DNA from: a bacterium
GTDB taxonomy: Bacteria > ARS69
Reading direction: 5' to 3'
Assembly: GCA_025774805.1 (NCBI GenBank)
Contig: JALGZR010000095.1
Location: forward strand, 1-14,911
DNA length: 14,911 nt
Positions within the stretch are counted from its first letter, which is position 1, and each line of letters begins with the position of its first letter. The notes beneath the pieces were generated by a model. That model had not been told where the DNA came from. It made no database searches and worked only from the letters and a program-made list of their open reading frames with translations. The position numbers were made by a program, and so were the translations under genes. Positions 2,866-9,930 of the stretch are shown piece by piece.

Positions 2866-3144
2866 GAGACCCCCGACTCCCCCCCATCTCCGATCGCGCT
2901 GTCGTTCCCTCTCACGTCCCGGTGCCGGATCCAGCCACCCTGCGGCGGCAGCCCTTCTCCAGAACGGGGCTTGCTTCATCTCAAACGGGGTGCGACGAGC
3001 CCTCGTTCCCTCTCCCTCTTGGGGGTGCATGGAGCGACTCCTCGTGGTCCCGGTGGCCCGTCGTGTCCCTCGAAGAGTCGGACCTCCGGCTCATTCTCCC
3101 TTCGACCCACGCGCCGCTTTTCCTGATTCTCTTCTCTTTTCGTG

Positions 3145-3173
3145 TTGACACCGCATGCCCAAACTTCCATAAT
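3145..3173 (+). promoter_or_regulatory. Promoter of dnaA
   Basis: TTGACA (3145-3150) and CATAAT (3168-3173) are separated by exactly 17 nt, a near-consensus sigma70-type promoter pointing at dnaA. The expected transcript start is near 3180, leaving a leader of about 240 nt. DnaA-box-like sites begin about 20-30 nt downstream of that start, which suggests autoregulation by DnaA. The motifs are seen directly; the use of the promoter is inferred. Confidence 0.65.
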
Positions 3174-3210
3174 CCCCGCTCTTCCAAGGATATACGGCCT
3201 TTTCCCCCTC

Positions 3211-3219
3211 GTGGAAAAG
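3211..3219 (-). promoter_or_regulatory. DnaA-box-like site
   Basis: CGTGGAAAA on the plus strand reads TTTTCCACG on the minus strand and matches 7 of 9 positions of TTATCCACA. It lies just downstream of the predicted dnaA transcript start. A degenerate TTTTCCCCC at 3201-3209 precedes it. Confidence 0.4.
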
Positions 3220-3278
3220 CTCCGGAGTCCGGGAAGTGCAGTCGTCGTCAGATCCCGCGGAGACAGGAACTTGGGCAC

Positions 3279-3298
3279 TTTTCCACCGTGGTGGATAA
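3279..3298. promoter_or_regulatory. Inverted pair of DnaA boxes upstream of dnaA
   Basis: TTTTCCACC (3279-3287, 7 of 9 to TTATCCACA) faces GGTGGATAA (3290-3298, 8 of 9 on the opposite strand) with two bases between them. The pair forms a near-palindrome in the dnaA leader. This is the best DnaA-box candidate in the window and could serve initiation, autoregulation or both. Confidence 0.6.
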
Positions 3299-3423
3299 CT
3301 CTGGGGGGCCGCCAACTTCATTTGGCTCAGGCACTTCAGCTGTTTCCCCCACCCCCGATCCTCCAAGCCCCTGCCTCGGCTCGTGCATAAGCTGTGAACC
3401 TTTGAACTTTCGGAGAAATGCCC

Positions 3424-4833: not shown

Positions 4834-5025
4834 TGGAGAGCGATCGAGTCGTGGAAAAGGTGAGCACGACGACGGGGACCGTTTCGGGATTGGATATCGC
4901 CCGTGGACAACCGGGCTCATCTTCCCCATCTATCCGGAATATCCCCACATCGTCGGGGGCACCATCATCGTTCGGAACTGGATATTTCACTGTGACTTCC
5001 GCCGGTTCCGAACTGGTCTTTCCCG

Positions 5026-5085
5026 ATTTCCACGGATCCTACTACTTCTACGAACTTGAATAGGTAAGGAAGAAGAATTAGAACT
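5026..5085. promoter_or_regulatory. Candidate DNA-unwinding element with DnaA-trio
   Basis: Read left to right there is a weak DnaA box (5026-5034), a short GC-rich spacer (GGATCC), then CTACTACTTCTA (5039-5050). On the complementary strand this reads 3'-GAT-GAT-GAA-GAT-5', four triplets fitting the DnaA-trio pattern 3'-[G/A]A[T/A]-5'. An AT-rich patch (5052-5085) follows. Box, GC cluster, trios and AT patch in this order are the arrangement described for the B. subtilis unwinding region. The box is poor, and a short match can arise by chance. Confidence 0.5.
5056..5084 (+). promoter_or_regulatory. Possible promoter for dnaN
   Basis: TTGAAT (5056-5061) and TAGAAC (5079-5084) are spaced by 17 nt upstream of dnaN. 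Both boxes deviate from consensus, and the site overlaps the proposed unwinding element. Confidence 0.3.
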
Positions 5086-5203
5086 GCGGGGGATATCTCC
5101 CACTTGCGGACTGTCGGAAAACCAGTTCGCTGAGGTAGCAGAAATGACGAAGGCAGCCATCGAGGAGAGTTCTCGGGTGACGAGTGAAAGTGATGGCGGA
5201 GCG

Positions 5204-6322
5204 ATGAGATTCACGACCCCACAGACGACTCTCGCGAGTGCGGTGGATCGTGTGCTGAACGTCGTTCCCCAGAAGACGACCATGCCGGTACTGGGTCACC
5301 TTCTTCTGGAGGCCTCCGGAAAGCAGGTGCAATTGACGGCGACCGATCTCGATCTGACGATCCGGACGCAGATAGACGCGGATGTGGCTCGAAAGGGAAC
5401 GGTCACCCTTCCTGCGAAGCGCTTCTCGGAGATCGTACGGCAGCTCGATCCGTCGGGCGACGTCGAGATCGACGTCCACAAGGCGAGCGCCCTCATCACG
5501 GCCGGACAGGCGAACTTCCGGATTCTCGGAATGGGGACGGACGAGTTTCCGCAGATTCCGGGACTCGATTTCAAAGAAGGCGTGACGATTCCGGGGGACG
5601 CCCTGAAGAAGGCGATTCAGAAGACCGTGTTCTGTGTTTCGAGGGACGAGACGCGGCGTGCCCTGACGGGAGTCCTCTGGGAGGTGAGTGGAAGCTCGAT
5701 GGCGATGGTGGGAACCGATGGGCACCGGTTGGCTCGCATCTGCCTTCCGGTGGAGATCGATGTGGAGGGAGATCGGGACTGCATCGTTCCGACGAAGGCT
5801 CTCCAACAGGTTGTCCGGCTGAGCGGGGATGCGGGAGAGAAGGGGATCCTGGTGAAGATCACCGAGGACCACGTGATCTTCCGTCTCGAGAACACGACGT
5901 TGTTCACGCGGTTGATCGAAGGGCCCTTTCCGAAGTACCAGGACGTGATTCCGAAGGAAAACGACAAGAAGATCGTGGCGCGGCGGGAGGCGCTCGGGGA
6001 CGCGCTTCGGCGAGTCAGCCTGTTGTCCGACAACCTGACACATCAGGTTCGGATGTCCCTTCGTCCCGACCGGGTCGTCCTCTCCGCACGGACCCAGGAC
6101 ATCGGCGAGGCACAGGAGGAGATCGAGATCCAGTACGGCGGCGAGGATATGGACATCGGCTTCAACGCCCAGTACCTGGGGGAAGTGCTCCGGAATATCG
6201 ACCGCGAGGAAGTTCTCCTCTCGCTGAGCACGCCGCTGAATGCGGGGCTCATCGAGCCACTCGAACAGACGGAGGAGGAGAACTACCTCTGTCTGATCAT
6301 GCCGCTTCGACTCGTGGACTGA
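5204..6322 (+). CDS. dnaN: DNA polymerase III beta subunit (sliding clamp)
   Basis: This is the ring-shaped processivity clamp of the replicative polymerase, 372 residues in three repeated clamp domains. Family marks are the N-terminal MRF followed by LASAVDRVLNVVPQKTTMPVL, the strand TATDLDLTI, the central GTDGHRLA, and the C-terminal CLIMPLRL. The start at 5204 matches the usual DnaN N-terminus, but its GGAG is only 2 nt away. An in-frame ATG at 5144 has a better placed GAGG (8 nt) and would add a 20-residue polar leader (MTKAAIEESSRVTSESDGGA). Homology favours 5204 and the ribosome-binding site favours 5144. The coding strand is G-rich. The expected downstream recF is absent; the next gene is a convergent msrAB 36 bp away. 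Confidence 0.98.
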   Translation: MRFTTPQTTLASAVDRVLNVVPQKTTMPVLGHLLLEASGKQVQLTATDLDLTIRTQIDADVARKGTVTLPAKRFSEIVRQLDPSGDVEIDVHKASALITAGQANFRILGMGTDEFPQIPGLDFKEGVTIPGDALKKAIQKTVFCVSRDETRRALTGVLWEVSGSSMAMVGTDGHRLARICLPVEIDVEGDRDCIVPTKALQQVVRLSGDAGEKGILVKITEDHVIFRLENTTLFTRLIEGPFPKYQDVIPKENDKKIVARREALGDALRRVSLLSDNLTHQVRMSLRPDRVVLSARTQDIGEAQEEIEIQYGGEDMDIGFNAQYLGEVLRNIDREEVLLSLSTPLNAGLIEPLEQTEEENYLCLIMPLRLVD

Positions 6323-6358: not shown

Positions 6359-7498
6359 TCAGTCGTTCCACTCCCGGAGGAAGTGGCAGGTATAGCCGCC
6401 AGGGTTCTTCTCCAAGTAGTCCTGGTGGTAGTCCTCGGCAGGCCAGAACGGACCGGCGGGGGAGATCTCGGTAATAATGGGGGCGCCCCAACGGTTCGAG
6501 GTTTCCCACACCGCCTTGATACGCTCGGCCGTCTCGCGCTGCTGATCGTCGGCCACGAAGATCGCCGAGCGATACTGTGCACCCCGATCGTTTCCCTGGC
6601 GGTTGAGCGTGGTCGGGTCGTGCATGCGGAAGAACCAGTCGAGAAGCTGGGCGTAGGAGAGCTTCTCGGGATCGAACCGGACCCGCACGGCCTCGGCGTG
6701 CCCCGTATCGCCGCGCGAGACGTCCTGGTACCGTGGATTCTCGAGCGTGCCCCCCGAGTATCCCACCTCCGTCGTGATCACGCCCGGGATCTCGCGAAGA
6801 AGGTCCTCCATTCCCCAGAAGCAACCGCCCGCGAGGATGGCGACCTCGGTGTGCGAGGGCTCGACGGCGGGAACTTCATACCCGGCGGCCCGGAACGGCC
6901 CAATGTGGTCTCCGTAGCCTTCGGCCGCGAGGCGATCCAGGGGCACGAAGCGAAGAGCGGCCGAGTTGATGCAGTAGCGCATACCGGTCGGAGCCGGACC
7001 GTCGGGGAAGACGTGTCCGAGGTGGGAGTCGGCGTACTTGGAGCGAACCTCGGTCCGAGGGACACCGAGCTTTCGGTCCGTGTGCTCGGTGATGTGAGCG
7101 CTCTCGACCGGACGGGTGAAGCTCGGCCAGCCGGTGCCGGAGTCGAACTTGTCGAGGGAGCTGAAGAGGGGCTCTCCGGACACGATGTCAACGTAGAGTC
7201 CGGGCTCTTTGTGGTTCCAGTACTCGTTCCGGTAGGGGGCTTCGGTGGCCTCTTCCTGGGTGACGCGGTACTGGAGATCGGTCAAGCGGTTCTGCAGCTC
7301 GTCGGGCAGGGGCTTCTCCCAGTTCTTCATGACGTGTGGACTCCAGGTTGTGCGTTCGACGGTGGGAGGGGTCGGTGGTGCGGGCTCCTCGCTGCGCGCT
7401 CTCGGGAGCCGGGGAGCGAGAAACGCCCCCGCCAGGAGAACTGTGAGAGCTCCCAGGAGGACGGGGTTCACCCTGCGGCGGCGCGGCCTCTTGGTCAT
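6359..7498 (-). CDS. msrAB: Exported bifunctional methionine sulfoxide reductase, MsrB-MsrA fusion
   Basis: This 379-residue fusion reduces both stereoisomers of methionine sulfoxide in oxidised proteins. Residues 1-35 are an Arg-rich start plus a hydrophobic stretch, a Sec signal or membrane anchor, so it acts outside the cytoplasm. The MsrB domain (about 55-200) shows [29 protein letters not shown] and the catalytic Cys176 in MRYCIN. The MsrA domain (about 216-375) has catalytic Cys226 in GGCFWG, VGYSGG, TGHAEAV and a likely resolving Cys371 in GGYTCHF. The MsrB half has no CxxC zinc sites and only one cysteine. The ATG at 7496-7498 lacks a strong ribosome-binding site. The gene follows the Asp-box gene by 119 bp and converges on dnaN, with no obvious terminator between them. 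Confidence 0.95.
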
Positions 7499-7542
7499 GA
7501 TACGAACCACCCCGGGGGAGACGCGATCGACGATTGCCCCGG

Positions 7543-7563
7543 CCCCGTGTCCGGGACGCGGGG
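7543..7563. other. GC-rich hairpin between the Asp-box gene and msrAB
   Basis: CCCCGTGTC (7543-7551) and GACGCGGGG (7555-7563) can pair over 9 bp, with one G-T wobble, around a 3-nt loop. It lies 54 nt after the stop of the Asp-box gene in the direction of transcription. No T-run follows on either strand, so it is not a standard intrinsic terminator. It could dampen read-through into msrAB or protect the upstream mRNA end. Confidence 0.35.
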
Positions 7564-7617
7564 ACGAAAGGGATTCTGCGACTCTACGCTTGGGATGCGG
7601 GGGGAGTGACTTCGGAT

Positions 7618-9930
7618 TCATTCCCCGGAAGTCGAGAATTCGCCGGGTCCGACCCGTCGGCGCGAACGGACCAGAGCGAAGACGAGGCCTCCGGCCAGGA
7701 GGAGAGCGAGGGCGGTCGCGCCCAGGAGCTTTTTGGACTTGTACCACCGGCGGAAGAGCAGGTAACCGCGGGCCCTCCAATCGGGCCGGGGGATGTCGAG
7801 GACCGTCCAGGTCGCGCCGGCGTCCTGGGAGCGGAAGATCTGCGTGTCGGCGTAACCGAAGACCGTCCGATCCTCGGCGTAGGTCGGAGAGAAACGGAGC
7901 GGAACGGACGTGGCGAGAGGGAAGCCGTAGAGATTCGCCAGGAGGTAGTTGTTCTCGATGAGCTCCGTCCCGGTCGCGATGAACGTGTCCCCTCCGTCCT
8001 CGCTCTTGAAGAGCCCGTGTCCTCGTACGCTCACGAGGAGAGTCCGGTCGTGCAGGTACTCGGGGGAGACGACCACGGCCTCTACGAAGGCGTCGCCGCC
8101 GTATGCGTCGCCGGGGAGGCGCTCCCACTCGCCGCCGCGATCCCGGGTGCGATAGAGGCCGGCGGCCGTGCCGGCGAAGAGGACTCCGTCCTCTCGGTAG
8201 GCCGGGGACATCGCGAGCTTGACGCCGGCCGCGCGGTGGTAGAGCGGCTCGAGCCACTCGATGCCGGTGTCCGCCGGCGACCAGGTCCGGCCGAGGTCCT
8301 CGCTCTTGCGGATCCCGTTGGTCACTCCGGCGAACAGTGTCTTGTCGGCCCCGACGTCGGGAGAGACGAGGAGGGAGGCTACGGGGCGATCGACCTCTCC
8401 CTGGAGGGAGAAGGTCTCGCCCCGGTCGGTCGAGCGGAAAACGTGTCCCCGCGTCGTACCCAGGAAGAGGGTCCGGTCGTCGCTTTCGGCCGGCGCGAAG
8501 GCGATCGTGAGTCCGTGGTACGAGTCCAGCCACCAGGGCTCGTTCGCGGGTAAGATCTGGCGCCAGGAACGTCCCTCGTTCGTTGATTTGAGGAATCGGT
8601 ACCAAGTCCCGGTGTAGAGCGTGTGATCGCTCGGGTAGTCGGGAGAGAAGGGGATGTCGAAGAGACGGGTGCGGCCGTTCGGTCGGACGTAGTCGTCGGC
8701 GCCGCGGTTGATGGGGCTCCACGTGTGCCCGGCGTCGCGGGACAGAAACGCGCCCCAGAGATACGTCGTGATGGCGATGGTGCGGTCCTGGGCGAACGCG
8801 GGCGAGACCCCGAGCCCCATGACGGCGTTGTCGGAGAGGGTGGGGAGCTCACGCCAGCTCTGTCCGTCATCGGTGGACCGGAAGAGCCCGTTGTAGCCGG
8901 CGAGAAGGAGGACCCGTGCGCCACCCGGGGCCGTGCCGGCGGAGAGAACGCTGTAGAAAGGCCTCTCGACCCGTCGGGCCTGCGGATGAGCCGTGAGACC
9001 CCGCCCCGTCCGGGCCCAGGTGGCGCCGCCGTCGGGGGAGGCGAAGAGGCCGTCGTACTCGAGAGAGACCAGCGTGCGCGGACCGGCATCCTCCCCGGAG
9101 ACGACCCCCGCGATCAGTAACAGAGAGGCGACCGCCGACGGCCAGGCCTGCCCCGCCCTGGAGAAGGAGCCGCCGTGGTTCGTCGATCGGAAGACCTGCC
9201 CGTCCCGCGTTCCCGCGACGATCACCCCGTCGTCGACGAACGTCGGCGAGACGGCGAGGGCCGTGATCGGCCCGGCGCCCTCGAGCGGGAGAGAGCGCCA
9301 GTGGATCCCCGCGTCTCGCGAAACGTGGAGGACCCCCGCGTCGTCCCCGGCGGCTACCTGGTGGGGTCGTCCGGGGAAGAGCGCGAGGGACGTGATCCGG
9401 GTGTCCATGTCGAGAACGAGCGCCCAGCTCTTCCCCCCGTCCTCGGTGAGATGAAGCCCGCCCTCCGCTCCGGCGGCGAGGACGAGGTCCGAGGATTCGA
9501 GGGACCCGTGAACCCGCTCGATGTTGAGGGTGTGCAGTCCGCTGTTGACCGGCATCCACGAGCGACCCGCGTCGCGGGATCGGTAGACCCCGTCGCCGCG
9601 CGAGGAGACGAACAGGGTGCCGAGGGACCTGCCGGCGGTCGACAGGGAGATCAGGCGATGCGTGTGATCCAGCCCCCGGATGAGCCGCCGCCAGGTCGCT
9701 CCGGCATCCTCGCTCTTCATCAGGTTCCCGCGGACAATGATGAAGAGGGTCTCGTCTTCGTCGTGGGTCGGAGAGAGAGCGATGTCGTAGATGTCGTCGT
9801 GGGGTGTGTGGGCGGCGGCGCGATCGGGGAGCCCGAGCCCCCCGGGGAGGGCGAGCGCGGCGAGCCAAGCGAACGAAAGGGGGAGCTGGAGCGCCCACCC
9901 ACCCCTCTTGAGAAAGGTCAATCGAGCCAC
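7618..9930 (-). CDS. Secreted, membrane-anchored Asp-box (BNR/sortilin-like) beta-propeller protein
   Basis: The protein has 770 residues. A signal peptide is visible (hydrophobic about 13-32, likely cleaved near AAA-H at 38-41), and a single C-terminal membrane segment (735-754) is followed by RSRRR, giving an extracytoplasmic body with a short inner tail. I count 14 Asp-box motifs (S/T-x-D/N-x-G-x-x-W/F), beginning at residues 73, 118, 162, 204, 249, 298, 352, 397, 449, 500, 543, 595, 643 and 701. Many are preceded by SPxxxxDxTLFxGT-like strands. Fourteen repeats suit two seven-bladed propellers, similar in style to sortilin/Vps10 and BNR folds. No sialidase catalytic set was recognised, so enzyme activity should not be assumed. 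The GTG start (9928-9930) overlaps the sulfotransferase end by 13 bp, implying co-transcription. Function unknown. Confidence 0.85.

Follow-up and report, generated by a model that had tools for sequence, protein, structure and literature searches.

The closest described counterpart of the element considered here is the basal unwinding system (BUS) of the Bacillus subtilis oriC (PMC6669920, PMC8287927, PMC10721633). In the published search for such systems, a DnaA box may carry up to two mismatches relative to the E. coli consensus TTATCCACA or the native box of the species, and is followed, after 0-16 bp, by at least three DnaA-trios (3'-NAN-5') on the expected strand. Location at oriC, and a DnaA that possesses the trio-capturing residues and the arginine finger, are further criteria. 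A tandem DnaA box accompanies 57% of predicted BUS. Cryo-EM of the B. subtilis system showed that DnaA captures the first two bases of each trio and leaves the third out (PMC10721633).

The window, that is, the whole stretch of DNA analysed, is an entire 14.9-kb contig (G000:C46) of a 5.1-Mb genome held in 284 contigs. It was compared with four other genomes of the phylum (G001 to G004); the five belong to one family, each forming its own genus, and their DnaN proteins are 67-80% identical. The locus consists of dnaA and dnaN, with yidC upstream of dnaA on the minus strand (Table 1). The dnaN gene probably starts at the ATG at 5144, which would provide an N-terminal extension of about 20 residues, probably disordered and MTKxxxEE-like; the frame of this extension (5144-5203) is open in all five genomes. 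Near dnaN, an ORF on the minus strand (6359-8722) carries SelR (MsrB) and PMSR (MsrA) domains and is apparently an ordinary methionine sulfoxide reductase fusion. An Rfam search gave no match, and a literature search on the oriC of Gemmatimonadota found no description among the papers searched.

Table 1. Features of the dnaA-dnaN region (window positions) and trio sequences, top strand, in the five genomes
Feature	Position	Strand	Remarks
DnaA box TTTTCCACG	3210..3218	-	upstream of dnaA
DnaA box TTTTCCACC	3279..3287	+	upstream of dnaA
DnaA box TTATCCACC	3290..3298	-	upstream of dnaA
dnaA	3418..4833	+	Pfam Bac_DnaA 1.6e-71, Bac_DnaA_C 2.6e-31
DnaA box TTTTCCACG	4850..4858	-	in gap
DnaA box TTGTCCACG	4902..4910	-	in gap, 52 bp from the box at 4850
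Degenerate tandem upstream half-box CTTTCCCGA	5018..5026	+	TTTTCCCC, TTGTCCCC, TTATTCCG in relatives; weak
Trio-proximal DnaA box ATTTCCACG	5026..5034	+	TCCAC core invariant in 5/5 genomes
Spacer GATC, 4 bp	5035..5038		length constant in 5/5; GCCC, GGCC, GAAC, GGCC in relatives
Four DnaA-trios 3'-GAT GAT GAA GAT-5' (top strand CTACTACTTCTA)	5039..5050	-	pattern uniqueness, conservation, shuffles
AT-rich patch, purine-rich top strand	5051..5085		most AT-rich part of gap
Possible dnaN promoter TTGAAT-N17-TAGAAC	5056..5084	+	17-bp spacing in window, G001, G003, G004
Possible second trio array, TTCTTCTTCCTT on minus-strand reading	5066..5077	+	p = 0.06 (window); strongest in G002, G004
Degenerate inward-facing DnaA-box-like site ATATCCCCC	5088..5096	-	also one arm of GGGG-N6-CCC inverted repeat
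dnaN	5144 or 5204 to 6322	+	Pfam DNA_pol3_beta domains; core from 5204
Trios, window			CTA CTA CTT CTA CGA
Trios, G003			CTA CTA CTT CTA CTG
Trios, G001			CTA CTG GGA CTA CTT; third trio broken (GGA)
Trios, G002			CTA CTA CTG CTG CTG
Trios, G004			CTA CTA CTT CTA CGA

The initial annotation had described, in the dnaA-dnaN gap, a degenerate DnaA box, a GC spacer, four DnaA-trios and an AT patch, and had predicted from them an origin-unwinding element in a little-studied lineage. The coordinates and letters given for the box, the spacer and the trios are exact, and the letters confirm that the trios read in the expected orientation on the other strand. The box is indeed degenerate with respect to TTATCCACA, from which it departs at three positions, though much less so with respect to the lineage's own TTTTCCACG, from which it departs at one; it is therefore outside the two-mismatch limit by the first standard and within it by the second. 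The trio-proximal boxes of the relatives are one or two mismatches from TTATCCACA. The term "GC spacer" suits the relatives better than the GATC of the window, and the box-to-trio distance, 4 bp in all five genomes, falls inside the BUS range. Four strict trios follow, where three are the minimum, and they lead, as had been claimed, into the most AT-rich stretch of the gap, the 60 bp from 5026 to 5085 ranking first with 63% AT versus 47%. The AT patch itself, which is probably where the opened bubble extends, is present, and it may also hold a promoter for dnaN. A weak TTTTCCCC-like tandem half-box occupies the equivalent position in all five genomes, its core 8 bp off that of the main box.

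We take this element to be a BUS, the strand-opening module of the chromosomal oriC in the dnaA-dnaN gap, a reading to which we give, from the sequence comparisons, a probability of about 0.88. By homology, the helix-turn-helix of DnaA would bind the double-stranded box, and the AAA+ domain of the box-bound protein would be set on the trio strand. Successive DnaA protomers would then capture the 3'-GA of each trio and so extract the bottom strand from the duplex, and the AT-rich stretch up to about position 5085 would be opened for helicase loading, as in B. subtilis. Binding, opening and loading are proposed here by analogy with B. subtilis and the six other species studied in PMC8287927. The support for a BUS lies in the presence of the element, its uniqueness, the order and spacing of its parts, conservation in the phase of the trios, the contact residues of DnaA and agreement with the GC skew. 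The position of the gap beside dnaN, with yidC upstream of dnaA, and the occurrence of similar arrays upstream of dnaN in two genomes outside the phylum also speak for it. On the other side stand the three-mismatch box, outside the two-mismatch rule of the published search when the E. coli consensus is used, a spacer that is not GC-rich in the window, a broken third trio in G001 and a comparison of only five genomes. This kind of site is already known; what is new is a conserved example in a barely studied phylum.

Examination of the relatives had been set beforehand as the check on the prediction, and it turned out favourably: the prediction is supported by the comparison of the five genera. 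The best 23-bp block of the aligned gaps, 5029-5051, has a mean pairwise identity of 80%, versus a gap mean of 47%, and none of 10,000 column shuffles reached this value. The box core TCCAC and the sequence CCTACT are invariant in the five genera. If the fifth position of the array is included, 22 of 25 trios retain the CT that corresponds to the captured 3'-GA of the bottom strand, the remaining changes being mostly at the third, uncaptured base. This pattern of variation, with the captured GA kept and the third base free, is a match, from natural variation, to the dinucleotide pocket seen by cryo-EM.

The protein side was approached by aligning DnaA of the window and of the four relatives to B. 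subtilis DnaA (8btg, taken as the B. subtilis protein, numbering included, from its agreement with the residues named in PMC10721633). The equivalents of E183, N187, I190, I193, R202, K222, E223 and E228, which contact the trios or the fork, are identical to those of B. subtilis in all five proteins, as is the equivalent of the arginine finger, R264. The sole mapped trio-contacting residue that differs is that equivalent to N196, which is G or S; in B. subtilis, Asn196 touches the uncaptured third base of the trio.

The conserved block could instead be a promoter/operator of dnaN, in which DnaA or some other regulator, bound at 5026-5050, would act on TTGAAT-N17-TAGAAC, and its conservation would reflect transcription control. 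A TTGAA-N17-TAGAA-like spacing does occur in four of the five genomes (with TTGTAC in the G004 form), and the GGGG-N6-CCC inverted repeat follows, near the expected start. However, the conservation peak is upstream of the -35 element and coincides with the box and the trios, and no promoter account explains conservation in trio phase with a free third base. In addition, a scan with the sigma-70 consensus did not call TTGAAT-N17-TAGAAC, and G002, which has no promoter pattern, keeps the box and trios nonetheless. As the sole explanation of the block, a promoter/operator is improbable, while promoter and unwinding roles may coexist.

The unwinding site could also lie upstream of dnaA (3100-3417), the gap element then serving only for DnaA titration or as a regulatory site. 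This upstream region carries a conserved cluster of better-matching DnaA boxes, whose starts in the window stand at +0/+69/+80; this arrangement is repeated exactly in G002, G003 and G004, and as +0/+69 in G001, which suggests that the three boxes form one half of the origin, phased and serving regulation or looping. The 52-bp spacing of the two boxes at 4850 and 4902 is likewise repeated in G002 and G003. Since boxes with fixed spacing are found both upstream of dnaA and in the gap, the origin is bipartite in layout, with trios only in the gap half. Indeed, trio arrays comparable to that of the gap were found upstream of dnaA in none of the five genomes, the one match, at 3118 in the window, being weak and not conserved. 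The upstream region is also less AT-rich than the gap element. The skew argues in the same direction: the cumulative GC-skew minimum of the window is at 5051, next to the trios, so that the agreement claimed in the initial annotation stands, albeit as a coarse signal with a resolution of about 1 kb. On the 82-kb contig of G002, which was used beside that of the window, the minimum (30827) is on a flat stretch about 400 bp past the trios (30428), and on the remaining short contigs the minima are scattered within about 1.5 kb. Placement of the unwinding site upstream of dnaA is thus very improbable; under the BUS reading, the boxes of that region, together with those at 4850 and 4902, would be the likely distal, looping or regulatory half of the bipartite origin.

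The least credible explanation is coincidence, in which CTACTACTTCTA would be a simple pyrimidine-rich string beside a degenerate box; the permissiveness of the BUS rules, which 85% of origins pass (PMC8287927), leaves some room for it, but the element is unique in its genome, is conserved in phase across five genera, which we count as already refuting chance, and has a shuffle p value of 0.0015, so that next to nothing of this explanation survives. The pattern TTCCAC-N2-8-(YTW)x4 has a single match on both strands of the 5.1-Mb genome, which is the window element, and the reversed control has none. The looser TCCAC-N2-8-(YTD)x4 yields ten matches in the five genomes, four of which are the aligned origin element (G000, G002, G003 and G004); one more of the ten is a reverse-strand match in G002, 44 bp from the origin element of that genome. 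The p value quoted above refers to the forward trio score in the window, relative to dinucleotide shuffles of the 53-bp inter-box sequence; summed over the five genomes, the score gives p < 0.0005.

A bolder possibility is that the BUS is one of two convergent unwinding modules, the forward box and its trios being opposed by the facing box (5088-5096, in TCCCC/TCCAC form) and pyrimidine-rich trio-like arrays on the opposite strand. The facing site occurs as ATATCCCCC in the window, TCGTCCACA in G002 and TTTTCCCCA, TTGTCCCCG and TTATCCCCG in the other relatives, and in each of the five genomes its core lies 58-61 bp from that of the forward box. In G002 (p = 0.005), as in G004 (p = 0.0015), reverse-strand trio-like runs stand out from shuffles, and they are not clear in the window, G003 and G001; even the good p values are optimistic, since the shuffles ignore the local pyrimidine tract. 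The spacers between the facing site and these runs differ among genomes, and the block containing the facing box is not conserved above shuffle expectation (0.617 versus a mean maximum of 0.626). The GGGG-N6-CCC inverted repeat (5088-5103) overlaps the facing site. Because the latter is half of this repeat, an operator or a 5'-UTR hairpin is an equal alternative to a second module; as an RNA hairpin, the repeat gave a weak five-pair stem, from a poor alignment in which one of the five sequences was the wrong stretch, and this result was set aside. Of 82 dnaN-upstream regions surveyed outside the phylum, 11 had a strict array of box and four trios, and most of these lacked a facing box; the survey gives no support to the idea that the convergent arrangement is general. 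Taken together, we regard a second module as doubtful. How two helicases are loaded is unresolved in the B. subtilis literature; if the convergent arrangement were true, DnaA filaments on both strands would offer a symmetric route to loading them, and a genuine facing box would make this origin well suited to testing helicase loading by DnaA on both strands.

Outside the phylum, a similar box-GCCC-CTACT array is found upstream of dnaN in Candidatus Eisenbacteria RS_13_32 (L040) and in G072 (L008), at distances of about 709 bp and about 337 bp, respectively. Unlike the window, these two loci have a stronger box 12 bp from the trios, with tandem boxes in the usual strong-upstream order, and no inward-facing box was found within 55 bp beyond the array. 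In the published BUS survey too, the upstream box of a tandem is usually the better one, whereas here the trio-proximal box is better and the upstream tandem box is weak and offset by 8 bp. The element further differs from the B. subtilis BUS in having four or five trios instead of six, and a box-like site that faces the trios from the opposite side. In other respects it resembles the B. subtilis oriC closely (PMC6669920, PMC8287927, PMC10721633): it lies between dnaA and dnaN, the box has the same orientation, box, spacer and trios follow one another in the same order on the same strands, the trios are of the 3'-GA-N type with an AT-rich patch beyond them, boxes flank dnaA on both sides, and the contact residues of DnaA are alike. 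The comparison, made at the level of single bases, thus extends the opening system of DnaA box and trios to a lineage of phylum rank represented here by five genomes.
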